Positions 46,353 through 64,000 of a stretch of 64,000 bases of DNA are shown piece by piece. The stretch covers positions 1 through 64,000 of the IMG/VR virus record IMGVR_UViG_3300034062_003747; one strand, written 5' to 3'. The notes under the pieces are model-generated. The model made no database searches and had not been told where the DNA came from. It was given only the letters and a program-made list of their open reading frames with translations. Made by a program: the position numbers and the translations under genes. Within the stretch, counting starts at the first letter, position 1. Every line of letters begins with the position of its first letter. Source of the DNA: a virus.

Positions 46353-47738
46353 TTATTTCCTAAGATTTTCTAAACGAAGAATTTCATCTTTAATTTTCTG
46401 ATTATATGGATTCCATTTTATGTTATCCAATAACCATTTACGATAGTAGGGTGGAATCGATGCTACTGGTTTGTTTGCATACTTACCAAACGTCATATAA
46501 ATCTTTTGTATCTCCCCCTCTTCGTTTCGTTGTTCAGATAAATTAATACCACCCTCTAAATGGATTCCAATTTCATGCATTGGGATACCGGTAAGTTTCT
46601 TTTTATTTTCACCATACAATTCCCATATACCATCCTCATCTTCTTTATAGTAAAGAGATTCTACTTTACCGAACTTATCAACTGCTCCAACAAAATCTAC
46701 AACTAAACAATTTTGTTTATTATCGTGAATACGAGTTCCTCTCCCCACAAACTGATACCACCACGAAATTGATGCAGTAGGTCGACCTGTGATTAAACAA
46801 TCTAATTCTGGATAATCAAATCCAACTGTCAATACGTTGACTTGAACAATAACTCTAATTTTTTGATTACGAAATTCTTCGATGATTCGGTTACGTTCTC
46901 CAGTTGGGGTTTCTCCATGTACTACTGCGGCAGATGGAATCTTTCCTGCTAATTGTGTTGCTTGAATAATGGTTGGTACTGCAATTAATATTGATTTTCT
47001 ATCTTGTAGTTCTCTAACTTTCTTTACAATTTTATCTTGTAGGTTTTGATTCTCATATGCACGTGCAATGGAATCATTTGTATATTCAGCACCAGATGAA
47101 TTATATACTAATGCTCCGGTATCAAAATCATATGATTGATATTCTAATGGAGTCCAAAATCCCATCTTCACAATTTCTTCAATTTGAGAAACGTGAATAA
47201 TATGTTTAAAAAATGTTCCATGTTTAGAACGATTAGTTAACATTACCAATTTAGAATATGGACCAGTCTCACTCATATTAGTTTGTAGTTTAAGTGGAGT
47301 TGCGGTTAACCCCAATACATGAGTTGCCTTCATACCATCTATAAACTTTCTTAGTTGTCCGTTCTTATCTCTTGGGTATCTATCACACTCATCTATTATA
47401 ACTTTGGTAATTCCTAACTCTCTGAATTTCCACGCAATGTTTATGATAGAACCGATTGTTGCATAGGTAATATCACCAATCTCTTTCTCACCCATTGATG
47501 CAGAATAGATTGATGCCTTACCACCTAAGTTAATAAGTTTATTGTAGTTTTGTTCTAATAATTCTTTTGAAGGTTGGATTACCAATACCTTTTCATTGAT
47601 ACCCTTTGCGATATAGGCAATAACAATCGACTTACCGAATGCAGTAGGTGCAACGATAATCGATGGTGCCATTTTTGGTGTGTTAAAAAACTCAATACCA
47701 ATAGCAACTGGTTCTAATTGATAATCTCTTAATTTCAT
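46353..47738 (-). CDS. uvsW: UvsW-like SF2 helicase
   Basis: The 461-residue protein has helicase motif I (VAPTAFGKS, K36), motif II (DECD, D116-E117), motif III (GLTATP) and motif VI (FVGRGTRIHD). This is the layout of T4 UvsW, an SF2 DNA/RNA helicase that unwinds branched DNA and R-loops and is part of the switch from origin-based to recombination-based replication. The end FGKYANKPVASIPPYYRKWL is a small DUF3820-like module often attached to nucleases. The gene lies directly after a small membrane-protein gene in the UvdE transcript and ahead of promoter P4. Confidence 0.88.
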   Translation of the reverse strand: MKLRDYQLEPVAIGIEFFNTPKMAPSIIVAPTAFGKSIVIAYIAKGINEKVLVIQPSKELLEQNYNKLINLGGKASIYSASMGEKEIGDITYATIGSIINIAWKFRELGITKVIIDECDRYPRDKNGQLRKFIDGMKATHVLGLTATPLKLQTNMSETGPYSKLVMLTNRSKHGTFFKHIIHVSQIEEIVKMGFWTPLEYQSYDFDTGALVYNSSGAEYTNDSIARAYENQNLQDKIVKKVRELQDRKSILIAVPTIIQATQLAGKIPSAAVVHGETPTGERNRIIEEFRNQKIRVIVQVNVLTVGFDYPELDCLITGRPTASISWWYQFVGRGTRIHDNKQNCLVVDFVGAVDKFGKVESLYYKEDEDGIWELYGENKKKLTGIPMHEIGIHLEGGINLSEQRNEEGEIQKIYMTFGKYANKPVASIPPYYRKWLLDNIKWNPYNQKIKDEILRLENLRK

Positions 47739-47859: not shown

Positions 47860-48753
47860 TTATTTTATAAAAGGTAATATTGCTAATTCTTTTGCTTTTG
47901 CTTCAACCATAATATCTACATTGTTACCATATGTGTTAGGTAATGAATTGATATAAAGGGAATGGGCTTGTAGTTTTTCTTTTGGATTATTTTCGTGTAA
48001 TGCTTTTGATTCTGAATAGTGTACAACGGGAGTAATTCCTTCGGGCCAAGTTGTGATTGCTAATTTAAGTGCTTGTTCTTCGGATAAATCACCGGTACAA
48101 AATTGGTGGTGGTGGTAATCGAATACAATAGGAATACCAATTGCATTATGGACATACATAAGGTCTTTAACTGAATACATAGATGCCTTATCATCATTCT
48201 CTATTGTTAACCGCTTACGAACCGATGGAGAGAGTCTTTGGAAGTTAGTGATGAATCTATCCAATGCGGATTTTTTATCTCCATAAACACCATTACAATG
48301 AATATTAATCTTATTGTAAGGAGTTTTAGATAATCCCATCATGTCGAATATCTTACCATGCAATTCTAAATCAGCAAGTGTTTTTAATACAACCGATTCG
48401 TTAGGTGAAACTAATACATTGAATGGACCAGGGTGGGAAGTAATACGAATATTATGAAACTTAGCAAAATCACCAGCCTTTTTAAGTTCTGATTTGATTT
48501 CCTTATAATCTTTGAGTTGAGTAATATCGATATGGTCACCCCACGGGATAAGAGTAGATGATAAACGAAACAATTTAATTCCGTTCATTCTATTCCATTC
48601 TAAAATCTTAATGATATCTTTGGAGTTAAGTAGGGCTAGTTCGGAAACGTAATCCATGCCTTTGGCTTGGAATGTCCGGTTAACCATACTTCGGTTAGTA
48701 GTAACTTTTTTACCCATACTCATATTAATACAAGCATATCCTAAATTCATCAT
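47860..48753 (-). CDS. uvsE: UV damage endonuclease, UvdE family
   Basis: The 297-residue protein runs LGYACINMSM, RLSSTLIPWGDH, RITSHPGPFNVL, INIHCNGVYGDK, RLTIENDD and PIVFDYHHH, the TIM-barrel motif order of UvdE. The His, Glu and Asp residues in these motifs bind the three metals. The enzyme nicks 5' to UV photoproducts and gives an alternative to nucleotide excision repair. T4 uses DenV instead, so this is a different solution. Class I promoter P5 lies upstream and the small membrane gene and UvsW helicase follow, forming a repair unit. Confidence 0.92.
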   Translation of the reverse strand: MMNLGYACINMSMGKKVTTNRSMVNRTFQAKGMDYVSELALLNSKDIIKILEWNRMNGIKLFRLSSTLIPWGDHIDITQLKDYKEIKSELKKAGDFAKFHNIRITSHPGPFNVLVSPNESVVLKTLADLELHGKIFDMMGLSKTPYNKINIHCNGVYGDKKSALDRFITNFQRLSPSVRKRLTIENDDKASMYSVKDLMYVHNAIGIPIVFDYHHHQFCTGDLSEEQALKLAITTWPEGITPVVHYSESKALHENNPKEKLQAHSLYINSLPNTYGNNVDIMVEAKAKELAILPFIK

Positions 48754-49206: not shown

Positions 49207-49577
49207 AATAAATCATTTGGTGTTTTTCTATAAATTCTATATGAATCCGAATCAAAGTGTTCCGTACTTACCTCGTACACAACTCCCTTTTCTTGCAAGG
49301 AAGTAAGTTGGTGTGGTGTTCCCTTTTCAATATAAACTGAATCGCCGGGGTTTAGAATTTCTTTTTTTATTATACCAATCTTAGTATCAATCCATCTGAA
49401 CTCAAATTGTCCATCTTGTATATACCACGTTTCGTTTTTAAGCATATGATAATGCATTGAAAACTTGTCACCTTTTTCTGCGAAAACTAAAAGTTTACCA
49501 CAATATTGTGCATCGTTATGAACCCATAGTTCATATCCCCACGACTTTTGTACTTTTGTTGGTCTTGTTATTATCAT
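49203..49577 (-). CDS. Cupin-domain protein, sugar isomerase-like
   Basis: The ATG at 49577 (124 residues, MIITRPTKVQKSWGYELW) is chosen over 49604 because it overlaps the IscA stop as ATGA and starts at the conserved KSWGYELW. The cupin metal site is visible: HYHMLKNETWYI and PGDSVYIEKGTPHQL. The combination of WGYELW, HxH...E and a later H recalls mannose-6-phosphate isomerase or phage cupins of that type. It probably acts on sugar phosphates with the nucleotidyltransferase encoded next to it. No active-site residue is missing, but substrate choice is open. Confidence 0.78.
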   Translation of the reverse strand: MIITRPTKVQKSWGYELWVHNDAQYCGKLLVFAEKGDKFSMHYHMLKNETWYIQDGQFEFRWIDTKIGIIKKEILNPGDSVYIEKGTPHQLTSLQEKGVVYEVSTEHFDSDSYRIYRKTPNDLL

Positions 49578-49897
49578 ACTGCAAAACTTTCTCCACATCC
49601 ACATGTACGGGATGCGTTTGGGTTTATAAATTCAAATCCTTTACCATTTAATCCGTCTGAGAAATTTAATTCTGTTCCGTAAAGATATAATAGGGATTTG
49701 TTGTCTACTAAAATTTTTACTCCTTTATCTTCTGCTAGATTATCTCTTGCCTGTTGGTCAGTATCAAATGAAAGGTCATATGACAATCCACTACATCCAC
49801 CACCTTTAATGGAAACTCTAACGAAGGGAGTTTTAAATCCACTTTCTTCAATGAGTGAACTTAGTTTTTTAGCTGCCGTTTCTGATACTGTTACCAT
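49574..49897 (-). CDS. A-type iron-sulfur cluster carrier (IscA/HesB-like)
   Basis: A 107-residue protein with the three cluster cysteines C35 (GGGCSGLSY), C99 and C101 (RTCGCGESF). The family accepts Fe-S clusters and passes them to client proteins. The gene is unusual in phages but known in T4-like cyanophages. The phage also encodes two radical SAM proteins that need [4Fe-4S] clusters, so a maturation role is plausible. It is two bases from the membrane-protein stop and overlaps the cupin gene as ATGA. Confidence 0.92.
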   Translation of the reverse strand: MVTVSETAAKKLSSLIEESGFKTPFVRVSIKGGGCSGLSYDLSFDTDQQARDNLAEDKGVKILVDNKSLLYLYGTELNFSDGLNGKGFEFINPNASRTCGCGESFAV

Positions 49898-51358: not shown

Positions 51359-52198
51359 TTAAATTAATTTAGGAACTTGTTTCCAACTAGGGTATGGTAA
51401 ATTATATGTTGGGAAGTTTAATCTTAAATACTCATATACATTACATGCATAATCGTAGTTAGTTTTTGGACCAGGATGTACCCCATCTACTCCCTTATCT
51501 ATTTGTGGTGAAAAATAATTACCATCAAACCTATTATTATTATATTCTTTTGGTATCCCATACCATGTAGGTGGAAACGTGGGTATCTCAAACCAACCAT
51601 TCCATAACCAATTACATCCCTTTGACTCTAAAAAATATTTGATTAATTGATGATTTTTATACCAATTAATTAAATCCTCATTATCATTTTGCAATTCAGT
51701 TAAATATTTTTGTATTTTTTTACCATCTTCAGTTTCTTCCATATATTCTTGTGCCGATGTTGGCATATATGGTTCTACCCCATTATCCTTAGTATATATC
51801 TCTCGTCTTAGAGGTGAGGTATACATAATTAAAACTAAATCAGGTTTAAGTATTTCATAAAAGGTTATTAGTGCTCTACTTATATAATCATTACTTCCAC
51901 CAACCCATCCTAAATTAAAATCAACCCCATTAGGAATAAGTTTTGAAATTTGATGTGACCAAGTTTCATCATCATTTACTCCCACTCCTTCGGTATTTGA
52001 ACACCCTATCGACATTATCTTAAATCCTTTTTTATGAATTGAATCTCCTCTAAACCCCAATTCATTGTAAGTATATGTACATAATCCAGTACTATCACCA
52101 CCGGTAGTATTGAATGATTTATTTATTCTTTCTTTAAATGAGTTTTTATAAGATAAGGTTTCAAATCCATCTGATGTCCAATATTCTAATGGTTTCAT
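51359..52198 (-). CDS. SGNH-type hydrolase/acetyltransferase-like protein
   Basis: The 279-residue protein has SIGCSNTEGVG with candidate serine S67, GWVGGSNDYI (blocks II and III, G and N), LVLIMYTSP and, near the end, GVDGVHPGP with a D-x-x-H arrangement. These are the blocks of SGNH hydrolases, which remove or, in some families, transfer acetyl groups on glycans. The first 55 residues lie before the first block, unlike the other four copies here. It ends the accessory cluster. It is translationally coupled to the next SGNH gene by an ATGA overlap. Substrate unknown. Confidence 0.74.
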   Translation of the reverse strand: MKPLEYWTSDGFETLSYKNSFKERINKSFNTTGGDSTGLCTYTYNELGFRGDSIHKKGFKIMSIGCSNTEGVGVNDDETWSHQISKLIPNGVDFNLGWVGGSNDYISRALITFYEILKPDLVLIMYTSPLRREIYTKDNGVEPYMPTSAQEYMEETEDGKKIQKYLTELQNDNEDLINWYKNHQLIKYFLESKGCNWLWNGWFEIPTFPPTWYGIPKEYNNNRFDGNYFSPQIDKGVDGVHPGPKTNYDYACNVYEYLRLNFPTYNLPYPSWKQVPKLI

Positions 52199-52971
52199 AT
52201 TGAGTTATTTAAAACAATAAAATCATAAAGGGTATTTGCAATTAATTTATATCCATCACCATTTGGGTGTTGAGCCACTTCAATTGGATTTGGTATTTTC
52301 TTCTCCCAAATATCTTTATCTTTAAAATTTTTTATTAACCACGACTCTAAAGATTCAATTCCAAACCCCCAATAATTTGTGGTGTCAATGAGGTGAGTAG
52401 TATCGTCATTTTTATTTAAATTCTGAACCATCAAATCAAACCCATCACACATAATGTATTTTATATTATATTCATTTAACATGTGTTGTAAATAAATTAT
52501 ATAATTTTGATTTATAATATTATAATAATTTTGTGTAAATAAATTGCCTAAAAAGAATTTTTTATACTCAGTCAAAAAATTATTAAACTTTTCATCCCCA
52601 TATGTGTATGATTCTATAAATTTATTAGGTAGTTTAGATAGTTCTAATTGACCCCAACTTATCCATTCTCCTTTTGGTAGAAAGGGAACATAATCTCTTA
52701 AAGATGAACTCCACATGATAACGACAAAATCATCTTTTTTAATTTTATTATTTCTTAAATCATTTATAACCTCATTAAAAATAATATTATTTGCTTTACC
52801 GCTCCATCCATTGTTTACAGCCTCTAACCCCATCTTATTTGCAAGGTGAGTAACCCAACTATTTTTATTTCTAAATAATTGTAATTGATTTCTATCCTTA
52901 TAAGATTGTTCGGTGGGCCAATCAATTCCTACCCCCTCTGTCCAACTATCTCCGTATGCGTATAATTTCAT
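52195..52971 (-). CDS. SGNH-type hydrolase-like protein
   Basis: The 258-residue protein starts MKLYAYGDSWTEGVG, with S9 as nucleophile candidate. NGWSGKANN gives blocks II and III, and AQHPNGDGYKLIANTL supplies the C-terminal H. The overlap with the upstream gene is ATGA. The start sequence MKLY is shared with three other products in this cluster that have different folds, which reflects a repeated junction rather than common descent. Probably a glycan esterase or O-acetyltransferase; that is inference from the family. Confidence 0.76.
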   Translation of the reverse strand: MKLYAYGDSWTEGVGIDWPTEQSYKDRNQLQLFRNKNSWVTHLANKMGLEAVNNGWSGKANNIIFNEVINDLRNNKIKKDDFVVIMWSSSLRDYVPFLPKGEWISWGQLELSKLPNKFIESYTYGDEKFNNFLTEYKKFFLGNLFTQNYYNIINQNYIIYLQHMLNEYNIKYIMCDGFDLMVQNLNKNDDTTHLIDTTNYWGFGIESLESWLIKNFKDKDIWEKKIPNPIEVAQHPNGDGYKLIANTLYDFIVLNNSI

Positions 52972-53648
52972 ATTATATTTTTTAGTTTACCGTTTAAATT
53001 ATCTAAGGGCGAATATAACACATGAGGTTTCCAACATTTAATATAATTATAAAAATTTTTAAAATTATCTAATGGTGGATATAATACAGCCGGATTCCAG
53101 TTATCAATTTGATTTATAAAATAATTTTCTGCAGAATATCTATTTTCTAATGTTCCCCATCCATTTTTAACATATTGCGGTATTCTATTAATTGATTTAA
53201 TGGTAGTCCACCAAAAATTACCACCATAAAAATTATTAGGACACCAATGTTTAATAATCTCAGGATATTTGATTATATAATTATCAATTCTCATCAACAC
53301 TCCAGATGTGTCAAACCCCATATTTAACAACTTAATATGTTCTTTATAATTATCTATCAATGATGCCTCCATATATTTTCTCCACTCAATTTCATATAAC
53401 TTAGTTGGTTTCGATGCTCCCTTAGTGTGAATATATAAAATATAATCGGTATTATCAAACTCCTTTACTTCTTCTAACATTTTTAAAAAAGTGTGACATT
53501 CGTTTTCGTTAATATTGACAATATTGGGGTGATATGTGAATTCATCGGTAATCTGATTAAACACTCTTTCCTTTTGTTCCTCAGCTATTTTTAAACCAAT
53601 GTTATCTGATGTATTACCTGACCATATGTGATGATATATCCGTATCAT
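52968..53648 (-). CDS. Putative glycosyltransferase-like protein
   Basis: The 226-residue protein has YILYIHTKGAS with WRKYMEA downstream, then a D-x-x-G element (GFDTSGVLM) and YGGNFWWTT. The HTKG...GNFWW pattern is known from bacterial glycan proteins annotated as glycosyltransferase-like, for example in rhamnan or LPS clusters. The last 40 residues contain a tandem duplication of W-x-P-x-VLY-x-PLDN. It is coupled to the downstream SGNH gene by ATGA. The reaction cannot be assigned. Confidence 0.6.
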   Translation of the reverse strand: MIRIYHHIWSGNTSDNIGLKIAEEQKERVFNQITDEFTYHPNIVNINENECHTFLKMLEEVKEFDNTDYILYIHTKGASKPTKLYEIEWRKYMEASLIDNYKEHIKLLNMGFDTSGVLMRIDNYIIKYPEIIKHWCPNNFYGGNFWWTTIKSINRIPQYVKNGWGTLENRYSAENYFINQIDNWNPAVLYPPLDNFKNFYNYIKCWKPHVLYSPLDNLNGKLKNII

Positions 53649-53706
53649 ATTAATACTTTTTTATTTGTTCTTCTTGTAATTTCTTTTGTTTCATATATTA
53701 CGATAG

Positions 53707-54330
53707 TTATTTCCAAATAGAAAATTGGTTTTGAATCTTATACCAAAATAATTCATCAGTTTTTAATAAAGTATTAATTTCAATCCATTGTTGGGGATAT
53801 GTTTTGATTAAATACTGTATTAGTTCAGATTTGGATAACCATATTGGATAGTTTGAAAAATTATACTTTACTTCATCAAAAATAGGTAATTTTTCAATAC
53901 CCATTTCTTTGGTTAAGAAATCGTTTAAATCATCCAACATTACAATAGTAGGTGGTGTAGGTAAAGAGACTCCAAACAAATATAGATATTTAAACAATTG
54001 ATGATGCCAATGTAATTGGGAGTTAATATCTATAATAAATTTATTTAACAGTTTCTTTTCTTCTAAAAATTTATTCTCCTTACTCAAACCCCCCAATAAA
54101 GATTGACTTTTTCTATTCCAACACCACTCTATAAACTCCGTATGTAATGCGGATATTAGCAAATCCATTGGAGTTCTTAAAACTACCCATTTAATATTTG
54201 AAGTTAGTGGAATTTTTATTATATCAAACAAATCAATATATTCTCTATCAATGTTATACACCTCATATAAAAAACGTGAACCACATTTTGGAGGAGTTAG
54301 AATTTGCTTGTTGAAGACGTATAATTTCAT
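53707..54330 (-). CDS. Sulfotransferase-like protein
   Basis: The 207-residue protein has PPKCGSRFL (5'-phosphosulfate loop, residues 13-21) and WVVLRTPMDLLISALHTEF near 48-66, matching the arginine and serine that hold the 3'-phosphate of PAPS. The match is shorter than in the 14592-15164 gene but has both key parts. It probably sulfates a carbohydrate. A 14-codon frame lies in the 58-base gap after it. The start is within a 18-base sequence repeated at the start of the next gene upstream. Confidence 0.7.
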   Translation of the reverse strand: MKLYVFNKQILTPPKCGSRFLYEVYNIDREYIDLFDIIKIPLTSNIKWVVLRTPMDLLISALHTEFIEWCWNRKSQSLLGGLSKENKFLEEKKLLNKFIIDINSQLHWHHQLFKYLYLFGVSLPTPPTIVMLDDLNDFLTKEMGIEKLPIFDEVKYNFSNYPIWLSKSELIQYLIKTYPQQWIEINTLLKTDELFWYKIQNQFSIWK

Positions 54331-54349
54331 TTTACATCATATTAATTTG
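54318..54349 (-). repeat. Gene-junction repeat, copy A
   Basis: The plus-strand core TATAATTTCATTTTACAT spans the stop-start junction before the sulfotransferase gene; it is identical at 55064-55081, before the SGNH gene. It encodes the shared MKLY start. Confidence 0.8.
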
Positions 54350-55074
54350 TTGGTTTTTTCATTCAAAATTCTATTACGAATTTCTTTTGCGATAAATTTA
54401 TGTCCGGCATCATTTTCGTGTGCATATAAATCTTTAGATAATCCATTTTTTATAATAAATTCAAAAAGACCTGTAAATAATAAATCATCAATATTACTAA
54501 ATTTAATAAACTTACTTAAATCAATTTTTTTAAATATATTTAATTTTTTAACAGATTTATCTAATTTAATATAGTTAAAAAAAAGATAATCAATATTATT
54601 TTTAATAAAATATTCCTGTAATATAAACATATAGTGTAAGGTTTCCTCACTTGCCCACGGTTCAGATTTTACTTTGTTATTATTATACATAAATGTATTA
54701 AGTTCACTATCCTTTATATATAAATAATCTTTTGAATTATTTAAATAATATTCTTCACCCGTTTCAGTTAGGGTTCTTCTTCTATTCGGCCAAGTCCATT
54801 CTATAATAACTAAATCAGGTTTTTGATTTTGGGAAATTAAATGTTCTATTTCTTCTAAAGTGGTGTGTAATATCCTATCATTTCCTCCACCATAAAAAGC
54901 ACTATTAAATAATATATTATCTTCATTATTTGTATTTTTATAAGAAATTATGTTTTGTATTAAAATTTCTTTAAAATTATCCACAATTGAATACATGAGT
55001 ATTTTAGGCCAATTTAAACTGAATTCAGCCCAATCACCCGCAGAATATGAACATCCGTTTACATATAATTTCAT
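54337..55074 (-). CDS. SGNH-type hydrolase-like protein
   Basis: The 245-residue protein begins MKLYVNGCSYSAGDW with S9 in the GCS block, has FYGGGNDRIL for the Gly and Asn blocks and ends with AHENDAGHKFIA for the final block. The arrangement matches small SGNH proteins of phage and bacterial glycan clusters. Its stop and the next start share the repeated junction. Likely an esterase or O-acetyltransferase for a glycan. Confidence 0.76.
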   Translation of the reverse strand: MKLYVNGCSYSAGDWAEFSLNWPKILMYSIVDNFKEILIQNIISYKNTNNEDNILFNSAFYGGGNDRILHTTLEEIEHLISQNQKPDLVIIEWTWPNRRRTLTETGEEYYLNNSKDYLYIKDSELNTFMYNNNKVKSEPWASEETLHYMFILQEYFIKNNIDYLFFNYIKLDKSVKKLNIFKKIDLSKFIKFSNIDDLLFTGLFEFIIKNGLSKDLYAHENDAGHKFIAKEIRNRILNEKTNKLI

Positions 55075-55097
55075 TTTACATTATATTTTGTTTAATT
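55061..55097 (-). repeat. Gene-junction repeat, copy B
   Basis: The second copy of the junction core TATAATTTCATTTTACAT, with similar A/T-rich flanks, at the start of the SGNH gene. Confidence 0.8.
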
Positions 55098-56332
55098 GTG
55101 TTATTTTTTTTCAAATCATTATTTAAAATCAAATCCAATAATGAATTTTCATTGTTCATTCTAAACATAAATTTAGTATGTACCACATCAGACCATTCTT
55201 TACATAATATATAATTTTCATCAAAGTTTTCCATAAATTCTTTTACGAATTTTGAAAATAATTTACCATCAACTTTATAATTTTTAGATTCTTTATAAAA
55301 CGGATGTGGTGGAACATCAAATATTTTTTCAACCATTTCAATTGGGTATTCGTGTGTTGATATAAATGGTATCCCAGCTAATAATAATCCAATTGTTTTC
55401 TCCGAAAGGTACTGTGATGTAAATTTTTGTGTACTCCATGACCAACTCTCACATAGTATTTGCATTTTGGCTTTTGTTAAAACTCTAAAGAATATATCAC
55501 CACATCCTTTTAAATTTTCAATATAACTTATATCATCAAAATCAGTATTACCAAGTATTGAATTATTTTTAATATCATTTGAAACCAATGACCCATTTTT
55601 TTTATAATATTTATTATGATTTAACGCATCACATGTTTTTAAATAAATTTTATTGTTATTTAAATTTTTTAATTCATTTAAAATACTAACTCTGTTTGAT
55701 TTATGATTTCTTACACTATACATTAAATCATAATCAAAATTTAATTTATCATAGACCTGTTTAAATTCATACCACCATCTAATATTTAAATTTTTGTTCC
55801 ATTGAAAAATAGAATTTGTAAGTGCAAAGTGAACGTTTTGATATTTGGATTTTACATGATTATTTAGAAAAAAATTATCAGTTATAATATAATGTTGATT
55901 TAATTGTTCTAATAGTGATTCTATTTCATTTGCTTTTTCATCAAACGCAATTTCTTCATATTTTTGAAATATTTTTTCCGTTCTGAAATAAGTGATTAAC
56001 CACTTTTGGTTCTTTGGACAATCTTTTAATAGGTTTATAAATATTTTTAATATTTGTTGATTTTCCCTATCCATATAACTTCTATCTGGTAAGATTGGGC
56101 CTATTTTTGAATCTGTACTTGAATTAAAATATGCACTGAAATAATCTAATATATGATATCCATCCTCTTCAAAACTAATTTCTTCTTTAAAGATAAATTC
56201 AATATCAGTATTTTTGTATTTACAAAACACACTACCTGTATTGTTTTCAATAAAATATTTTCTATCGGTTGTATTATTTCCTAAAGTATATAATAACGAT
56301 TTATCAAACTGATGATGTATATATATTTTCAT
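55076..56332 (-). CDS. Putative GT-B-like glycosyltransferase
   Basis: The 418-residue protein has no clear catalytic motif, but its C-terminal third, with ILCESWSWS, YLSEKTIGLLLAGIPFIS and PHPFYKESKNYK, has the layout of the donor half of GT-B/GT10-like transferases. It shares long stretches with the gene at the window edge (63009-64000), for example the KEFMENFDENY and LCKEWSD segments, so these two are paralogues. It probably transfers a sugar to a phage or host surface glycan. Confidence 0.6.
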   Translation of the reverse strand: MKIYIHHQFDKSLLYTLGNNTTDRKYFIENNTGSVFCKYKNTDIEFIFKEEISFEEDGYHILDYFSAYFNSSTDSKIGPILPDRSYMDRENQQILKIFINLLKDCPKNQKWLITYFRTEKIFQKYEEIAFDEKANEIESLLEQLNQHYIITDNFFLNNHVKSKYQNVHFALTNSIFQWNKNLNIRWWYEFKQVYDKLNFDYDLMYSVRNHKSNRVSILNELKNLNNNKIYLKTCDALNHNKYYKKNGSLVSNDIKNNSILGNTDFDDISYIENLKGCGDIFFRVLTKAKMQILCESWSWSTQKFTSQYLSEKTIGLLLAGIPFISTHEYPIEMVEKIFDVPPHPFYKESKNYKVDGKLFSKFVKEFMENFDENYILCKEWSDVVHTKFMFRMNNENSLLDLILNNDLKKNNTIKQNIM

Positions 56333-56341
56333 AACTTTAGT

Positions 56342-56812
56342 TTATAAAAGTGTTATGCATTTTGCACCAAATGAATATACAAGTTTAATCGCCGCTATAT
56401 TCCATTCAAATATTTCCATTCTAATTTCTCTAAATTTTTTAAAAATAATTTTAGTTGTATTGCTATAAAACCAGTTCGAAGATTCATTTGGTCTTTCTAT
56501 TACATTTGTAATGTATAAATTATAAGTAAAGCAACTGTCATTATTTATTTTTTTAAACCACCTATAACCAACCGGTTGTTCTTTATAATAAAATATAAAC
56601 ACATAATGACCATCATTAATTCTAGTATACACGTCAGTTATATTAAACATTCCGTCCCATTTATATTCTATATTAAAATAGTCAATCAATGTTTTCATTG
56701 AGTTTATATTTTTTTCTAACGTATCTAAATCCTCCACCAAAACATAACTTAAATCTTCATGTTCGGTTGTATATTCTATAAAAGTTTCTTTTGTTAGTTT
56801 AAAGGTTTTCAT
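56342..56812 (-). CDS. GNAT-like acetyltransferase
   Basis: The 156-residue protein has a strand-helix pattern with FIFYYKEQPVGYRWFKK and the end NIAAIKLVYSFGAKC, which is the C-terminal GNAT motif (N-x-x-A...GA). The acetyl-CoA loop is diverged. The gene overlaps the FkbM-type gene by four bases. The substrate is unknown; within this cluster an amino-sugar or lipid acyl acceptor is possible. Confidence 0.55.
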   Translation of the reverse strand: MKTFKLTKETFIEYTTEHEDLSYVLVEDLDTLEKNINSMKTLIDYFNIEYKWDGMFNITDVYTRINDGHYVFIFYYKEQPVGYRWFKKINNDSCFTYNLYITNVIERPNESSNWFYSNTTKIIFKKFREIRMEIFEWNIAAIKLVYSFGAKCITLL

Positions 56813-57411
56813 AATATTGTTTGGTATTTTTTATTAACAAATAAAATATTTAAATCTTTCCAATTTATTTTTTTATTAATCTCCTCTTTATTAATTACTA
56901 TAAAGTTATTTTTTTCTAAATATTCAATAAGATAGGTGTGCCTATTTTCAGTATTATATAAATTTTCATTTCTACTCCCTTCAACTTGTCCTCTTTTTAT
57001 TAAAGATATTTTTTCATTTAGGGATTTAAGAATATCCAAATCACTACCTTGAGCATCACAATGAAAGTAATCAATTGAATCTATATTATTTTCATCTATA
57101 AATGTATCTAATCTTATAACTTCTACATCCACTTCCATTTCATATTCGGTGATTTTATTTTCAATACTATAATTGGATAGTTCATTTATTGAAGATGACA
57201 TTTTATTTTTTCCAATATAAAATTTTGAAATTCCATTTATCATTCCCACCGCTTTATTTATTATTTTAATATTTTTTTTATTAAAAAATCTTAATTTTAA
57301 TTTTTCCGCGTGATAGTTGTCCGGTTCAAAACAATAAACAAACGAATCATCTTTGAGATATTTTTCAGTATCTTCACCATCAAATCCACCTATTTCTATA
57401 ATTGTTTTCAT
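56809..57411 (-). CDS. FkbM-family methyltransferase
   Basis: The 200-residue protein has TIIEIGGFDGEDT (SAM-binding loop), FEPDNYH, and then IRLDTFIDENNIDSIDYFHC with AQGSDLDIL, the FkbM family signature. FkbM-type enzymes O-methylate sugars or small molecules. The overlap with the downstream GNAT-like gene is four bases. It probably caps a sugar residue in the same pathway. The loop GGFDGED is a normal SAM site with acidic residue. Confidence 0.82.
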   Translation of the reverse strand: MKTIIEIGGFDGEDTEKYLKDDSFVYCFEPDNYHAEKLKLRFFNKKNIKIINKAVGMINGISKFYIGKNKMSSSINELSNYSIENKITEYEMEVDVEVIRLDTFIDENNIDSIDYFHCDAQGSDLDILKSLNEKISLIKRGQVEGSRNENLYNTENRHTYLIEYLEKNNFIVINKEEINKKINWKDLNILFVNKKYQTIL

Positions 57412-57424
57412 TTTAAATTAGTTT
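57409..57424 (-). repeat. Gene-junction repeat with AAACTAATTTAAAATG
   Basis: Near copy of the junction at 63006-63021, with one base inserted, at the end of the methyltransferase gene. Confidence 0.6.
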
Positions 57425-58006
57425 AGTAATGACATTATTTGAAGGATAAATAAAAATACAACCTCTTTTTTTAACTCCATTCATATATGATTCTTTACTA
57501 ACATATTTTTCGTAACTATTTTTTCCATAAATCAACTCAACGTTAGATTTAATATGTTTCCAATTCAATTCTATGTTATTTCCGTTTTCATCAATATAAC
57601 GTTCATAATCCCAATTCTCGTGGCCACAATCAAAATCATGTATAATAATAATTGGTTTATAATTAAAATTTGAAATTATTTTCAATTCATCATTTATCGG
57701 CCAAGTACCCCAATGAGCATCTAAAAATATAAAAAATTTATCATGCCCTATTTCTATAAAAAATTTCTCTAAACATTCGGGTGAATTTCCTTTTAATATT
57801 TTAATATTCGGATTATTATTAAATCTATAATATAAAGGGAAATATTTACTATCTAATTCACAGCTATAAACTTTATCAAAAATGTGTTGTAAAATATCGA
57901 CAGATTCTCCTTTGTTTGTACCCGTTTCTATTATAATGTTATAATCAAATTTTTGTTTTAATTTCATTATATCAATTATTAACATGCTATCTTGCTTAAA
58001 CCCCAT
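57413..58006 (-). CDS. Class I SAM-dependent methyltransferase-like protein
   Basis: The 197-residue protein has NIIIETGTNKGESVDIL (SAM loop), VYSCELDSKYF and FFIFLDAHWGTWP, the order of class I methyltransferases of the Methyltransf_24 type. Its end is basic (RGCIFIYPSNNVITKLI). It is one base from the FkbM gene and likely also methylates an intermediate of the glycan pathway. The start ATG is the first in the frame; the methyl acceptor is unknown. Confidence 0.7.
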   Translation of the reverse strand: MGFKQDSMLIIDIMKLKQKFDYNIIIETGTNKGESVDILQHIFDKVYSCELDSKYFPLYYRFNNNPNIKILKGNSPECLEKFFIEIGHDKFFIFLDAHWGTWPINDELKIISNFNYKPIIIIHDFDCGHENWDYERYIDENGNNIELNWKHIKSNVELIYGKNSYEKYVSKESYMNGVKKRGCIFIYPSNNVITKLI

Positions 58007-58042
58007 AGTAATATATTTTTTTATTTTCTATTAAGATGTTTA

Positions 58043-58798
58043 TCATAATAATCTTAAAGGTTTTTTTTTATACTTTGTTAGATTATAATTTATTGTTTCA
58101 TACTCAACATCTTCAATTGTAATTTGAATTTTTGATTTACAATTTTGATTTAGATTATCGGTTTTTTTTAAAATAACATTTGCTAACATGGGTTGGACTC
58201 CGATTGAATAATGAACATCTTCATTGTTATGAAAATTATTTTTAATTAACCAATTAGCAAACCCATCTTCAAATTTAATATTTGTTCCATAATTTAATAG
58301 TGTATCCGTATAAGATGACTCCTCAATGAAAATATAAAATATAGATATTTTTTTAGATATTAAATATTCAAATAACGGATTTATTAATTTAAATAATCTA
58401 AAATTATAATCTAATGAATTTTTTAAATAATAATCTACTAAAGATAAAACTCCTTCGTTTTCTTCTAACACTCTACTATATTTTTTTTTGTTAATAATTT
58501 CATTATCATATAGTTCATTAAATAATACATTAGTAGATTCAATTGTATTAGTTACTTTATTTAAAAAACAACCTCTGGAAAGAAAAGAAAAATTAATGAG
58601 TATTATATCCCCCTCCCTATAATTTTGTAATTGTTCTAATATTTTTCTAAAAATAATTTCGTTTGATGCTCCTCCAACTGTGAATGCGGGAATATATTTA
58701 TACTCTATACTATCCGCAATATGATGACAAAAATGTTTATTATCACCATAATAATTTACTGTTCCATAACTATCACCAAAATGAAATAATTTTTTCAT
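58043..58798 (-). CDS. SGNH-type hydrolase-like protein
   Basis: The 251-residue protein starts MKKLFHFGDSYGTVNYYG with S10, then TVGGASNEII for the Gly and Asn blocks and DVHYSIGVQPMLANVI for a D-x-H catalytic block. This is one of five SGNH copies in the cluster, with an unusual long, Lys-rich C-terminal strand part (KIQITIEDVEYETINYN). It likely acts on acyl groups of a glycan. It is separated by one base from the radical SAM gene upstream. Confidence 0.72.
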   Translation of the reverse strand: MKKLFHFGDSYGTVNYYGDNKHFCHHIADSIEYKYIPAFTVGGASNEIIFRKILEQLQNYREGDIILINFSFLSRGCFLNKVTNTIESTNVLFNELYDNEIINKKKYSRVLEENEGVLSLVDYYLKNSLDYNFRLFKLINPLFEYLISKKISIFYIFIEESSYTDTLLNYGTNIKFEDGFANWLIKNNFHNNEDVHYSIGVQPMLANVILKKTDNLNQNCKSKIQITIEDVEYETINYNLTKYKKKPLRLL

Positions 58799-58799
58799 A

Positions 58800-59963
58800 T
58801 TAAAAATTTGTGAATATTTGTATATTTTGATAATCCGTTTTCAATTTTTTTAATTTATTAACTTCGTCTAAAAACATTACATGCTCAGGATGTTCTGAGT
58901 TTCTTACATTTTTTATTTTAAATTGTCCTTCTGTAAATGTTCCCCAGTTATTAATATGGATAAAGTTTACTTCCGTTTTCATACCATTTAGTTTTTGTAA
59001 GTAATCTGCCAATTCCACAAACCCAATCATTTCCGTATAATTATTATTTTGAACTACGAATGTTAATCTTACAAAATCTAAATTTGGTATTTTAGTGAAT
59101 ATAAATTGTAAGTTTTTATAAAGAATATCCCAATTACCACCTAATCTTATTTGTTCATAAGTTTCCTTTGTACATGCGTCTATACTAATTTCTGCCGTTA
59201 TTCTTGGTATTGAATGTAGATTTTCTAATCTATCCCATATTTTTTCTGTCCATCCGTTTCCGTTTGTGTGTAAATGTAAATTTTTTGTATTTGGGTATTT
59301 TTCCATTGTAATGGATTTTAAAAGATTACGCCAAAACTCACTCCCAAATCCATCGCCACTTGCGGTAATGTATAATTCGTGAGCATCATTCATTGCAAAT
59401 TCTAAAATTTTATCCTGTATGGTTTCTGATTTTTCTCTTTCTTTGCCCGTAGTATTAATAAAATCGGTTCTACATGATGGGCATTTAAGGTTACAACTTC
59501 TATCATGTGAAAAAATAACACACTCGGGCCCCCATGGTAAATCTGATATTTTTTCTTCAATAATTTTTTTAAACTTCTCTTCTCCGTCTGGGTTAATGGT
59601 TTTATTGTTCCAAAGTTTATGAAATGTTTTTTCGTCAAAAATTGGGAAATACCCATTATCATAAACACTTTCATCTATTTCTTCATTATTCCATTTTTGT
59701 AAAAATCCACATTCTTTTTCATCACAATATTTCATACTACCATCGTGCATAGAATCTCTCAATTTGATTGCAACCTCACTATTCCAAATATTATTCCAAT
59801 TATCTGTCAATGCATTACCAGCAGGTCCACACTTAACCCAAGCGTTTACCCATCGTTTTTCTTCCTCACTCCAAGCACCGGAACAACATTGCCAAACTAA
59901 ACCATTTGACTGAAATTCGGCATTTCTGAATGGTGCTACACAAAATCCTTTTTTATTACTCAT
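58800..59963 (-). CDS. Radical SAM/SPASM-type protein
   Basis: The 387-residue protein has the cluster motif C157-x3-C161-x2-C164 (SCNLKCPSC) and cysteine pairs in the first 90 residues (C8, C26, C27, C80, C85) that suggest auxiliary clusters. The motif LYITASGDGFGSEFW and IDACTKETYEQIR follow, as in SPASM-type enzymes. These carry out C-H functionalisation on peptides or sugars. It is coupled to the halogenase by an ATGA overlap. The pairing is unusual in phages, and the substrate is unknown. Confidence 0.85.
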   Translation of the reverse strand: MSNKKGFCVAPFRNAEFQSNGLVWQCCSGAWSEEEKRWVNAWVKCGPAGNALTDNWNNIWNSEVAIKLRDSMHDGSMKYCDEKECGFLQKWNNEEIDESVYDNGYFPIFDEKTFHKLWNNKTINPDGEEKFKKIIEEKISDLPWGPECVIFSHDRSCNLKCPSCRTDFINTTGKEREKSETIQDKILEFAMNDAHELYITASGDGFGSEFWRNLLKSITMEKYPNTKNLHLHTNGNGWTEKIWDRLENLHSIPRITAEISIDACTKETYEQIRLGGNWDILYKNLQFIFTKIPNLDFVRLTFVVQNNNYTEMIGFVELADYLQKLNGMKTEVNFIHINNWGTFTEGQFKIKNVRNSEHPEHVMFLDEVNKLKKLKTDYQNIQIFTNF

Positions 59964-61186
59964 ATTAACGTTGTATTTTTTTTAGGAAAATTTCCATTAT
60001 TGATTAATATGTAACTTTCAATTGGAAAATTTAATCTTGTTGATTTAGGTACATTTAACACTTTTTTTAATTGGGAATTATTTTTAATACATACTAAATT
60101 TTTATTTGATATTATCTTTTCTAATTCATTTGGTAATTTTTTTTCTTTATATGTTTTCCAAAAAGTAGTATTGTTTTTTGAACAATTATAATGATGTCTA
60201 ATTATAATCATATTTTGTCTTTGTATATTATTTATACTTTCATTAAATTCATTTTCACTTAAAGTATTATTTAAATATTTTTTAAAAGTTTTTAATTGTA
60301 CCACAATTGTCATAATTGAGGTTGCTTCCAATGGTTCTAAAAAACCAGAACTTAACCCTACAATTAAACAATTATTTATTAATGTTTTTTCATAAGTTCC
60401 TGGTTCAAAAGTAATTGTTTTATTAATTTGTATATCATTTCCAAATTTGTTTATTATTTCCGTTTTTGCAATATCTTCTGAAATAAGTTTTTTGTCAAAA
60501 ATATATCCACACCCCCATCTATTTTGTAATGGTATTTGCCAAACCCACCCATAATCCATTGCAATTGCATTTGTTCTTGTATTAACCGTAACATCATTCC
60601 TTTTTAAGAAAAAAGGTATTGCTGTATTAACTATTAATTCATCAGCATAAGTTTTCCACTTTAATTTAAATAGTTTTGGGGTTAACCTATGAAATCCACT
60701 ACAATCAAATACAAAATCCGTATCATAATTGATATTATTTTCTAATTTAATACTATTAATATCACCTTTTTCATTTTGTTCAATATTTTTTATTTTCCCA
60801 TCTATGTGTTCTACTCCTCTGATTATCGCAATTTCTTTTAAATAATCTGCTAATAATCTTGCATCAAAATGATATGCATATACACTTTTATCTTCTTCCA
60901 TTAAATCACCAAATCCATGAACATATGAATAATCTATATCTGACCAGTTGTGGAAATGAATACCTATTTTTTTTGTTCCATTTACTTTTTTTAATAAATC
61001 GCTTTCATCAATTTCTAATTCCGATAGGAAATTTACCAAATTTGGAGTACTCCCTTCACCGGCACCTAGTATACCAATTTCCGAACTTTCTATTAGTTTT
61101 ACGTTTGAATTTTTGTAATATTTTTTTGCAAAAATTGCAGTTAACCATCCGGCTGTTCCTCCACCAATTATTATAATATTGTTCAT
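59960..61186 (-). CDS. Flavin-dependent tryptophan halogenase-like protein
   Basis: The 408-residue protein has the FAD motif GGGTAGW at 8-14, GAGEGSTPNL near 41, a TKKIGIHFHNW element with lysine at 72 or 73 (the halide-activating Lys of PrnA and RebH lies in the matching place) and the halogenase signature YGWVWQIPL near 211-218. The family oxidises chloride or bromide to a HOCl or HOBr-type intermediate that halogenates an aromatic residue or small molecule. It is coupled by ATGA to a 2OG oxygenase and to a radical SAM gene, so the three form a modification operon. A monooxygenase without halogenation is the main alternative. Confidence 0.86.
   Translation of the reverse strand: MNNIIIIGGGTAGWLTAIFAKKYYKNSNVKLIESSEIGILGAGEGSTPNLVNFLSELEIDESDLLKKVNGTKKIGIHFHNWSDIDYSYVHGFGDLMEEDKSVYAYHFDARLLADYLKEIAIIRGVEHIDGKIKNIEQNEKGDINSIKLENNINYDTDFVFDCSGFHRLTPKLFKLKWKTYADELIVNTAIPFFLKRNDVTVNTRTNAIAMDYGWVWQIPLQNRWGCGYIFDKKLISEDIAKTEIINKFGNDIQINKTITFEPGTYEKTLINNCLIVGLSSGFLEPLEATSIMTIVVQLKTFKKYLNNTLSENEFNESINNIQRQNMIIIRHHYNCSKNNTTFWKTYKEKKLPNELEKIISNKNLVCIKNNSQLKKVLNVPKSTRLNFPIESYILINNGNFPKKNTTLI
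59961..59985 (-). repeat. Gene-junction repeat with ACAACGTTAATATGA
   Basis: On the minus strand ACAACGTTAATATGA encodes the C-terminal TTLI and stop of the halogenase and contains the start of the radical SAM gene. A copy with one change (ACAACGTTGATATGA) lies at 61184-61198, at the oxygenase-halogenase junction. Confidence 0.78.
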
Positions 61187-61665
61187 ATCAACGTTGTTTT
61201 TTTAATTAAATCCTCATAGTTAACAAATAACAAAGCACTTTTTCTAATTCCTTTTGTTATTTTACTTATTTCATGTAATCTATCTGATTTAAAAAAATAA
61301 GGAATTCCTGGTGTTTTGTCAACAATAGAATCGGGATTATATAAAATATATTCCCCTCCATCGTAATCATCATTTATATGAAATCCCACAACATACGCCC
61401 TATTTTTATAACCCCTTTCAACTGAATCAATATGTTTACCAAAATAATCACCCACATTATATTTATGGAGTGTTAAATTATAATCGTAAGATTTTAGTTT
61501 TTCACCACTTTCAATTTCAAACCAATTTAATAGTTTAGTGGTTATATTCATTTCATTATTTGTAAGAACCGCAAATTCGTAACTTCGGTTTTTTAATTTT
61601 CTAAAATCCGTATTATTCCAAAAAGATTTTAAAAAATCTAATTCAATATCACTATATAACTTCAT
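61183..61665 (-). CDS. 2OG-Fe(II) oxygenase, P4H/PKHD-like
   Basis: The 160-residue protein has the metal triad H78-x-D80 (FGKHIDS) and H131 (RLHEIS) with R141 (GIRKS), the full 2OG oxygenase signature, plus the FHINDDYDGGEYILYNP strand. The enzyme hydroxylates a peptide or a small molecule. It has the shared MKLY start and TTLI end. The gene is followed by the halogenase through an ATGA overlap. The same signature occurs in the gene at 1167-1736 next to the polyproline protein. Confidence 0.87.
   Translation of the reverse strand: MKLYSDIELDFLKSFWNNTDFRKLKNRSYEFAVLTNNEMNITTKLLNWFEIESGEKLKSYDYNLTLHKYNVGDYFGKHIDSVERGYKNRAYVVGFHINDDYDGGEYILYNPDSIVDKTPGIPYFFKSDRLHEISKITKGIRKSALLFVNYEDLIKKTTLI
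61184..61198 (-). repeat. Gene-junction repeat with ACAACGTTGATATGA
   Basis: Second copy of the 59961 junction, one base changed (A to G), coding the TTLI end of the oxygenase. Confidence 0.78.
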
Positions 61666-61667
61666 TT

Positions 61668-62276
61668 TTAATATATATTTTTTTTAGAACCATAATCCTT
61701 AGTATAATCTAATATTGTAAATCCTCCTGCATAAACGATTCGTTCTATATCCGAACTACGATTTAATTCAGGTTTGTGTAATAAATTTGCTGGAAATAAA
61801 ATTAAATCTCCTACTTGTGGTAAATACGATACTTCTATACCTTCATTTGTTCTAAATAATATTTTTCCTTCTTGCTCGTTTAAATTATCAGGCATTTGTG
61901 CATAATAAACAAATGACCAATCTATATCCGTTTTTAAAGTATCGCTAAAAGTATGTGTATGAAATCTTGTCCAGTTGTTATTTTTATTAGAGACATATAT
62001 CCATTCGGTACTAAAATATAAATTTATATCATTTGTATTATAATTTAAAAATTTAAAAATTTTTTTATATATTTTAGTATTTAAATTTTTAATTGCTTTT
62101 GTTTTTAAAATTATATATGATTGAATACCATGTTCTTTAACAGATTCGACTGATGTTTTTTTATTTACTTTCATATTAAATTTTAAATCTTTTATTAATT
62201 CAAAATTATTAATAGTTGGTAAATTTGTAATATAAAAAGAAACCACATCAGTTATTTTTATTTCTTTAAATTTCAT
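61668..62276 (-). CDS. 2OG-Fe(II) oxygenase-like (PF13759-like)
   Basis: The 202-residue protein has WTRFHTHTFSD with H106-x-H108 in place of H-x-D, LLHKPELN with H167 and R179 in DIERIVYAG. The VYYAQMP and PQVGDLILFPANLL segments match the 2OG-FeII_Oxy_5 group, where the H-x-H pattern is used and the role is poorly known. The first 80 residues are mixed alpha/beta with no recognised domain. It lies two bases from the next 2OG oxygenase gene. Confidence 0.72.
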   Translation of the reverse strand: MKFKEIKITDVVSFYITNLPTINNFELIKDLKFNMKVNKKTSVESVKEHGIQSYIILKTKAIKNLNTKIYKKIFKFLNYNTNDINLYFSTEWIYVSNKNNNWTRFHTHTFSDTLKTDIDWSFVYYAQMPDNLNEQEGKILFRTNEGIEVSYLPQVGDLILFPANLLHKPELNRSSDIERIVYAGGFTILDYTKDYGSKKNIY

Positions 62277-63008
62277 TTATATTAAATTTATTTTATGTTT
62301 TTTTTCTTGTTTTAATAAAAACTCATTTAATTCTTCTGCTATTTTTGCATGGCCAGAAATAGAAAGGTGCGATGATTCTGTATTTAAAAATTTATATTTT
62401 GTTGACCACTTTAAAATAGAATATTCGTTTTCCAAATTAAAAAAATTTCTTTTTTTTAATTCTTCTAACTGATTATCATTGTTTATTTCTGGCCAATACA
62501 TTAATAAAATTTTATTATTTTTTTTCTCCGCATGTGAAACCAACGTATCAATTTGATATAATAAATAATTAAAAGTTTCTTTTTCATTATAATGATGTTC
62601 AATATAAGATGAATACATTTTTAACATTTCATCAATCGTATCATTTTTGTTTATATTTTTATCGTACATTTCCGAAATTAATGGATTTTTAAAATCAACT
62701 TCAAAATTTACAAAATTTGATTTTTCATTATATGTAGGTATAACATTAAATGCGTTGGGTTGGTAATTTACCCATTTTTGAAAATATGAACTATATAAAC
62801 CAAGTCTATGTAACCAAGTAATTTGTAATATTATAAACGAATTTTCTATATTGTGTTTTGTTATATAATCATATATTTTATAAATAATATGATTATTACT
62901 TAATCCCGGATGTGATAAATTACTAACATCGTATCCCATCTCTTTTAATATAGCACCATATGACTTAGTACCACATGAATATGAACAACCGGAAATTAAA
63001 ACTTTCAT
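62277..63008 (-). CDS. SGNH-type hydrolase-like protein
   Basis: The 243-residue protein begins MKVLISGCSYSCGTK with S9, has LSHPGLSNNHII for the second and third blocks, and ends with ESSHLSISGHAKIAEEL for the last block. It is the furthest upstream of the five SGNH copies. The product ends in INLI, one of seven genes in the cluster with an LI terminus coded at the junction. It probably removes or adds acyl groups on a glycan. Confidence 0.74.
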   Translation of the reverse strand: MKVLISGCSYSCGTKSYGAILKEMGYDVSNLSHPGLSNNHIIYKIYDYITKHNIENSFIILQITWLHRLGLYSSYFQKWVNYQPNAFNVIPTYNEKSNFVNFEVDFKNPLISEMYDKNINKNDTIDEMLKMYSSYIEHHYNEKETFNYLLYQIDTLVSHAEKKNNKILLMYWPEINNDNQLEELKKRNFFNLENEYSILKWSTKYKFLNTESSHLSISGHAKIAEELNEFLLKQEKKHKINLI

Positions 63009-63021
63009 TTAAATTAGTTTT
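63006..63021 (-). repeat. Gene-junction repeat with AAACTAATTTAAATG
   Basis: A short A/T-rich junction, AAACTAATTTAAATG on the minus strand, that encodes the KLI end of the upstream protein and precedes the next ATG. A near copy (AAACTAATTTAAAATG) lies at 57409-57424. Confidence 0.6.
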
Positions 63022-64000
63022 GATGTGGTGGTGGTGGAATATTTAAAGTCGTTAATCATCAAATCTAATAAAGAGTTTTCATTATAAAATTTATCCATAA
63101 AAGCTATATGACATATATCTGACCATTCTTTACATAAAGTATAATTTTCATCAAAGTTTTCCATAAATTCTTTTACGAATTCTGCAATCTTAACCGCATC
63201 TCCTTTTATTTTTTTACTTTCATTATAAAATGGGTGAGGTGGTATATCTAAAATTTTATTTAAAACTTCTAATGGGTAACTATGTGTTGATATAAATGGT
63301 ATACCTGATAATACAAACCCTATGGTTTTTTCTGAAAGGTAATGTGATGCAAAATCTGAATCTGCCCACGACCAACTTTCATCTAATATTTGCATTTTTG
63401 AAATATTTAATACTCTATAAAATAAATCTAAACCAAGTCTATTTTTATGTATTAAATGTAAATTATCAAAATCGTTATCACCTTCCATAGAATTTAGGTA
63501 TATATCCGTTACTTTATTTTCATGTGTTAAATTTAGTTCACTATTTTTACGAGCATCTGACCTTTGTAAAAAAATCCTATTATTATTAAGTTTTTTTAAT
63601 TCATTTAATAAAAGTATTCTATTGTATTTATATGACCTAATTGAAAAACACAAATCATAATCAAAATTTAATTTATCATATATTTTTTTAAATTCATAAT
63701 ACCATCTTATTTCTGCATGAAAATTCCAATACCACATTGAATTTGAAAAAGTATAATAAAAATTAGAGTATTTTAATCTTATTTCATCTTTTATAAAAAC
63801 TTCTTCTAATACTATTTTATGATTTTTTAATTTTAAAAAAGAATTTTCTATATCGTATAATAAATCCATATTTTTCTTATAAAATACATTTTCATATTTA
63901 AATAAAGTCTTTTCACCATTGAAAAACATTATTATCCAATTCGTTTTACCTTCTAATAAATTACATAAATTATCAACGGGATTATTGACTATATTATCTA
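63009..64000 (-). CDS. Putative GT-B-like glycosyltransferase, 5' end beyond window
   Basis: The frame is open to the window edge. An internal ATG at 63929 would give 306 residues, but the open frame continues upstream without a stop and the extra segment (NLLEGKTNWIIMFFNGEK) matches the middle of the paralogue at 55076-56332 (NLLKDCPKNQKWLITYFRTE). So the true start lies beyond 64000 and the gene is partial here. The C-terminal YLSEKTIGFVLSGIPFIS and PHPFYNESKK segments show the same GT-B-like layout. It likely transfers a sugar in the accessory pathway. Confidence 0.62.
   Translation of the reverse strand, partial: DNIVNNPVDNLCNLLEGKTNWIIMFFNGEKTLFKYENVFYKKNMDLLYDIENSFLKLKNHKIVLEEVFIKDEIRLKYSNFYYTFSNSMWYWNFHAEIRWYYEFKKIYDKLNFDYDLCFSIRSYKYNRILLLNELKKLNNNRIFLQRSDARKNSELNLTHENKVTDIYLNSMEGDNDFDNLHLIHKNRLGLDLFYRVLNISKMQILDESWSWADSDFASHYLSEKTIGFVLSGIPFISTHSYPLEVLNKILDIPPHPFYNESKKIKGDAVKIAEFVKEFMENFDENYTLCKEWSDICHIAFMDKFYNENSLLDLMINDFKYSTTTTSKLI

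Follow-up and report, generated by a model that had tools for sequence, protein, structure and literature searches.

What does a virus modify with a flavin-dependent halogenase of only 408 residues whose gene lies between those of a radical SAM protein and an oxygenase? The gene is found in a stretch of 64,000 nucleotides (hereafter the window), which comes from a virus record of 77,825 bases. We addressed the question through the family membership of the enzyme, the genes that accompany it, and the recurrence of both in related viral loci.

Genomic context of the halogenase

The halogenase gene (HAL) belongs to a dense run of minus-strand genes that reads, in order of transcription, GT415, SGNH-like, OG2, OG1, HAL, and radical SAM (Table 1). 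A sequence-only reading of this DNA had reported ATGA overlaps of the halogenase gene with its radical SAM and 2OG oxygenase neighbors, and a second 2OG oxygenase gene preceding these; the reading frames and both junctions (59960-59963 and 61183-61186) are exactly as it described them, and OG2 is the second oxygenase gene. An overlap of exactly four bases, however, occurs at 9 of the 54 neighboring gene pairs in the window and is the commonest single close spacing there. Such overlaps are therefore ordinary in this DNA; they mark an operon-like arrangement rather than a special one, and prove little. No T4-type late promoters (TATAAATA) were found at the junctions of the cluster genes, and no flavin reductase was recognized near the halogenase. 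A C-terminal -LI common to many cluster proteins (51359-63929) was considered as a tag and rejected, as it comes from an AT-rich start context that overlaps the stop codon of the upstream gene. Elsewhere in the window, a NodU-type carbamoyltransferase is encoded at 36912-38627 (PHROG 1601, 1.8e-116), a gene type also present in the halogenase cluster of phage S-SSM6a.

Table 1. Genes of the halogenase cluster and its surroundings, in window coordinates.
Feature	Position	Strand	Basis or remark
Compact flavin-dependent halogenase (HAL), 408 aa	59960-61186	minus	Pfam Trp_halogenase
2OG-Fe(II) oxygenase (OG1; PF13640)	61183-61665	minus	HxD + distal His
2OG-Fe(II) oxygenase-like protein (OG2)	61668-62276	minus	PHROG 81
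Radical SAM protein, N-terminal SPASM-like Cys-rich part	58800-59963	minus	CxxxCxxC = CNLKCPSC
SGNH-like protein	62277-63008	minus	by eye, GCSYSCGT start; no Pfam family over cut-off
GT415 family protein, glycosyltransferase-like by eye	63009-64271, past window end (64000)	minus	
Sulfotransferase-like protein	53707-54330	minus	PPKCGSRFL P-loop by eye only; no Pfam match
FkbM-type methyltransferase	56809-57411	minus	
GDSL/SGNH hydrolase	52195-52971	minus	family in 54/88 P495 loci

Family assignment and catalytic residues

The HAL product matches the Pfam family Trp_halogenase (PF04820) with E=1.5e-91 (308 bits, against a cut-off of 21) and PHROG 2928, tryptophan halogenase, with 3e-90. Its nearest annotated phage homolog is the halogenase of HTVC008M (AGE60413.1), at 39.7-43% identity; a match of 39.7% over 84% of the length means that the halogenase assignment is not due to chance. 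A scan for close relatives with the window halogenase alone as query gave no match, and relatives came only from a scan with an alignment. A profile built from 38 compact homologs picks up 30 different halogenase sequences of solved structure, with PrnA, RebH, PyrH, BrvH, Xcc4156, and VirX1 among them.

The motifs that the sequence-only reading had called intact are so. GGGTAGW, the FAD motif (GxGxxG), occupies residues 8-14, and WVWQIP (WxWxIP), at 214-219, keeps both Trp residues. Of the two lysines that it had named together, Lys72 and Lys73, the latter is the catalytic one by alignment, since K73 pairs with PyrH K75, whereas K72 falls opposite a Tyr. The counterpart of E287 is PyrH E354, and K75 and E354 form the catalytic pair of PyrH. 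Loss of the catalytic Lys had been named as one observation that would speak against a halogenase; K73 is retained in the alignment with PyrH and, like E287, is invariant in all 38 compact homologs. H90 and F92 are retained as well. A Lys and a Glu are important for flavin-dependent halogenases (PMC8407142). Identification of the predicted product as a flavin-dependent halogenase that keeps its catalytic Lys and Glu is thus supported at the level of sequence.

A compact clade without the substrate loop

The window enzyme belongs to a group of halogenases of ~410 aa that are without about 50-60 residues. Few residues separate F92 from Y104 in the window halogenase, against roughly 50 to 65 in 9luq and PyrH, which leaves it about 48 to 61 residues short of those two proteins here; the deleted segment is present in full-length phage homologs. 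It covers substrate-loop region 1 of the Trp halogenases, Th-Hal 135-169 (PMC7336383), and the C-terminus is also shortened relative to those enzymes. The substrate loop and C-terminal Trp-binding module that together characterize free-Trp halogenases of the PrnA, RebH, and PyrH type are not found intact in this protein. Because the loop is missing, free tryptophan appears an unlikely substrate. Two bacterial enzymes, BrvH and Xcc4156 (PDB 6FRL and 6Y1W), offer a comparison: with short substrate loops and an open site, they leave free Trp untouched and halogenate indole, and a peptide substrate has been proposed for them (PMC7336383). They differ from the window enzyme in their length (about 511-523 aa) and in that only their loops are short, whereas the window enzyme loses a larger segment.

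In a maximum-likelihood tree of 74 rows, 35 compact halogenases, the window's among them, form a monophyletic clade with support of 100/99. VirX1, the cyanophage forms, and the HTVC008M halogenase all fall outside it.

Oxygenases and the radical SAM protein

OG1 matches 2OG-FeII_Oxy_3 (E=2.9e-6) and has the full HxD...H set, with HID, a distal His in DRLHE, and GIR for 2OG. OG2 scores just under its Pfam cut-off (24.8 against 27 bits) but matches PHROG 81 (2OG) at 6.8e-14. Its distal His is present, and in the alignment a Phe (HTF) occupies the acid position of HxD/E, which in its relatives is almost always D or E, with Tyr in locus L143. Judged by this alignment, OG2 of the window may be inactive or may use another ligand set.

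A same-strand 2OG gene adjoins the halogenase gene in 33 of 33 compact cases with both neighbors in view, as counted with 2OG profiles that were seeded from these same cassettes. Among non-compact phage halogenases the figure is 21 of 96 with a broader profile, against about 15% expected by chance. Because the link is conserved in the compact relatives, and is seen also in HTVC008M, action of the halogenase and oxygenases on a common substrate is plausible. To this extent we retain an earlier suggestion, made from the coupling of the genes, that three redox enzymes here modify one substrate in sequence. The radical SAM protein does not share in the conservation: its relatives occur in 18 of 88 loci of the type described below, several genes from the halogenase, and the two adjoin only in the window; a unit of all three enzymes is thus unsupported. 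This protein scores 26.2 against a Pfam radical SAM cut-off of 29.5, with SPASM above cut-off and the CNLKCPSC motif intact; a search of 50,697 phage records found it no relatives. Far from the halogenase, at 41531-42730, the window encodes another radical SAM protein (PF04055, 4.2e-14).

A conserved cassette with the Hint protein P495

In uncultured phages, the genes of nearly all compact halogenases lie in a conserved cassette whose gene order is OG1-HAL-OG2-ST-ZN-P495 or HAL-OG2-OG1-ST-ZN-P495. Here ST is a sulfotransferase-like protein, named from its P-loop and a weak PHROG sulfotransferase match (0.0026), ZN is a Zn protein named from a weak DUF6171 match, and P495 is a Hint protein. Downstream of P495 come a small protein of ~46 aa, an SGNH protein, another 2OG oxygenase, another sulfotransferase-like protein, and then radical SAM, GT415, or FkbM genes. 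A protein of 45-50 aa with the pattern IERPxQxIKxxxxPxSxxLKxKVxxAFxxVVxxIKxKHL is conserved after P495 in most loci (L009-L168). Of the distinct P495 loci, 27 have 5.9 kb or more of upstream sequence, and 23 of these 27 carry a halogenase; a few loci of this set were first found through the halogenase, and most were not. The full-length halogenases of P495 loci are all compact except that of L059. At least 114 IMG/VR loci encode relatives of P495, and in most of these proteins the C-terminus is a Cys/Trp-rich tail preceded by an invariant His-Asn. The P495 of L008 had no match in the 50,697 phage records, and a P495 profile had none in a pattern-based, non-exhaustive scan of 84,980 bacterial and archaeal species, each represented by a single genome. 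The cassette was also seen on two jumbo-sized virus contigs, L140 and L093 (287-289 kb).

The window's contig itself encodes a diverged P495 of 608 aa beyond the window, at 65630-67456 (L089:5630-7456; 26% identity, E=2.4e-24), 4.4 kb upstream of the halogenase and in the same orientation. The order on this contig is P495, a 47-aa gene, two sulfotransferase-like genes, GT415, SGNH-like, OG2, OG1, HAL, and radical SAM; the cluster is the same kit as the P495 cassette, with its order shuffled. This P495 has no Cys/Trp-rich tail and no adjacent Zn gene, and ends in a canonical Hint domain and HNK. An IscA/HesB-like iron-sulfur carrier position, recognized by eye at 49574-49897 (compare L013:5744-6067), a helicase (46353-47738), and an endonuclease (47860-48753) are neighbors of the cassette in L013 too.

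The conserved cassette around compact halogenases points to a shared chemical modification. What is new here is the compact clade together with this cassette, for neither of which was a description found in the literature searched, mostly outside subscription journals. The general pairing of halogenase with 2OG oxygenases is already known from the published S-SSM6a cluster.

Proposed role and competing explanations

Our preferred explanation, to which we assign a probability of roughly 0.6, is that the window encodes a working halogenase that would halogenate an aromatic group of a large substrate on which the 2OG enzymes also act, as one step of a phage modification cassette. The enzyme would belong to the Trp-halogenase (variant A) family and work as a two-component flavin-dependent halogenase. 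FADH2 made by the host would react with oxygen to give a flavin hydroperoxide, which would oxidize chloride, bromide, or iodide to hypohalous acid, and this would travel to K73/E287 and halogenate an electron-rich aromatic ring. The sequence has no substrate loop and only part of the C-terminal module, so the active site should be open; a likelier substrate than free tryptophan would then be an aromatic moiety, be it Trp, Tyr, or phenol, carried by a large molecule such as a protein, peptide, or glycoconjugate. The flanking 2OG oxygenases would hydroxylate the same substrate, and the cassette, with its 2OG, halogenase, sulfotransferase-like, SGNH, glycosyltransferase- and methyltransferase-like proteins and the Hint protein P495, probably decorates a component of the virion or host surface. 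Halogenase activity, an open site, and a substrate shared with the 2OG enzymes are what we infer from the protein sequences and gene neighborhoods.

Alternatively, what the cluster makes or decorates could be a glycan, or else a small secondary metabolite: a capsule, O-antigen, or pigment. This has a published precedent: in the jumbo marine cyanophage S-SSM6a, a cluster that, like the window's, pairs a halogenase with 2OG oxygenases, and includes carbamoyltransferases, was read in terms of a secondary metabolite or of capsule decoration (PMC7824862). That cluster differs in being described with carbamoyltransferases and HAD phosphatases, and no P495 or Hint protein is mentioned in the part of the account available (PMC7824862). 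The viral genome studied here does carry SGNH, FkbM methyltransferase, glycosyltransferase-like, sulfotransferase-like, and NodU-type carbamoyltransferase genes. Halogenation, however, needs an aromatic ring, and no biosynthetic gene for one was recognized in the window; moreover, the most regular partner of the compact clade is the Hint protein P495. We judge this explanation unlikely.

The second competing explanation takes P495 itself as the substrate. In its common form, residues 280-469 resemble Hint domains (pairwise hhalign P about 1e-5), whereas residues 1-280 do not (P 0.2-0.7); an iterated Hint profile drifted into the N-terminal half and was discarded in favor of the hhalign comparison. 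An ATP-grasp assignment for the N-terminus is not claimed, as it appeared in one member only (RimK, E=0.063). Compared with known Hint and intein-like domains (PF07591, PF14890), the domain of most P495 proteins is degenerate: the N-terminal Cys is gone, and the invariant His-Asn is kept, followed by the tail (for example TCWCPWNYCGHWCNSWYCPSCSGG), which has five invariant Cys and is present in nearly all P495 loci. The P495 of the window's contig has two Hint domains, one degenerate and one canonical (PT-HINT 4.2e-13, Intein_splicing 3.3e-11), the latter with an N-terminal Cys, TxxH (TTTEH), and a terminal HN. In L059, a Cys-rich segment directly precedes a canonical Hint domain. Taken together, the Hint-like region, the His-Asn, the tail, and the L059 arrangement make a Hint-released peptide substrate an attractive reading.

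A RiPP-like system would follow, in which the cassette modifies the Cys/Trp/Tyr-rich C-terminal tail (x-CWCPWNYCGHWCNSWYCPxC-). The position of the halogenase, a few genes upstream of P495 in the same run, would fit. As a full explanation we nevertheless find this unlikely, and equally so its detailed form, in which the halogenase would act on Trp, the 2OG oxygenases on Pro or Asn, and the sulfotransferase on Tyr, with the degenerate Hint domain cleaving at the invariant HN. The P495 of the window's contig lacks the tail though the halogenase there is intact, and nothing tail-like stood out in the cluster as a separate Cys/Trp-rich peptide, so that the candidate precursor is seen in the P495 of relatives only. 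At loci that have no halogenase the tail persists, mostly with its Trp residues. It reads CWCPW where a halogenase is present and CWCSW or CWCGW where it is absent; the confirmed absences, however, belong to a single P495 clade, and other tails are seen at two loci with a halogenase; the difference is thus mostly one event on the P495 tree, and the covariation, confounded by phylogeny, is not independent evidence. The tail could equally be a metal knuckle. Tempting as it is to see the halogenase substrate in the P495 tail, the evidence leans against it.

That the trimmed protein is now a flavin monooxygenase or inactive relative would suit its loss of about 50-60 residues and shortened C-terminus, but is quite improbable, because K73, E287, the FAD motif, and the Trp of WxWxIP are invariant or nearly so across the clade, which indicates purifying selection.

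Relation to other phage halogenases and a host lead

Halogenases had been described, in the sequence-only reading, as rare in phages. That description fails: relatives occur in 83 of 50,697 phage records, mostly of cyanophages, and at confirmed level in at least 598 loci of an IMG/VR scan; a survey found the gene in 20 of 153 cyanophages (PMC10452541); and VirX1 of cyanophage Syn10 has been characterized (PMC8407142). VirX1 (PDB 6QGM) resembles the window enzyme as a phage flavin-dependent halogenase with the catalytic Lys and Glu; it has an open active site and prefers iodination over bromination and chlorination (PMC8407142). It differs in its length (531 against 408 aa, 27% identity), its separate part of the tree, and its full loop region and C-terminus. 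In the Pelagibacter phage HTVC008M, as in the window, a 2OG/PhyH oxygenase gene overlaps the start of the halogenase gene. The HTVC008M enzyme, however, has 464 aa, keeps the segment of about 50 residues, and is encoded among head and tail genes, and no P495 cassette was seen beside it.

The baseplate wedge protein is nearest to those of a Microcystis phage and of the Flavobacterium "immuto" phages (38-43%), and the window's contig has lipoprotein-like ORFs with CSKED or CSKDD, of a type known from Bacteroidetes. Together these suggest a flavobacterium as the possible host, in preference to a cyanobacterium or Pelagibacter, a prediction we offer as no more than a lead.

Implications

Phage halogenases are common in marine data, and for none of them is a natural substrate known to us; the reports on VirX1 considered here describe non-natural test substrates. 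Since the compact clade is tied to one Hint-protein cassette, the question of what a viral halogenase modifies becomes testable on a small, defined set of genes. A broader proposition is that uncultured phages have a dedicated pathway of maturation, in which a segment of a ribosomal peptide or protein would be modified by a compact halogenase together with 2OG oxygenases and sulfotransferases, and then released or handed on by a Hint domain. We hold this to be unlikely on present sequences; if true, it would amount to a virus-encoded RiPP-like or halogenated-virion system. At 408 aa and with no Trp loop, the halogenase may in addition take bulky substrates, which would make it useful in biocatalysis.
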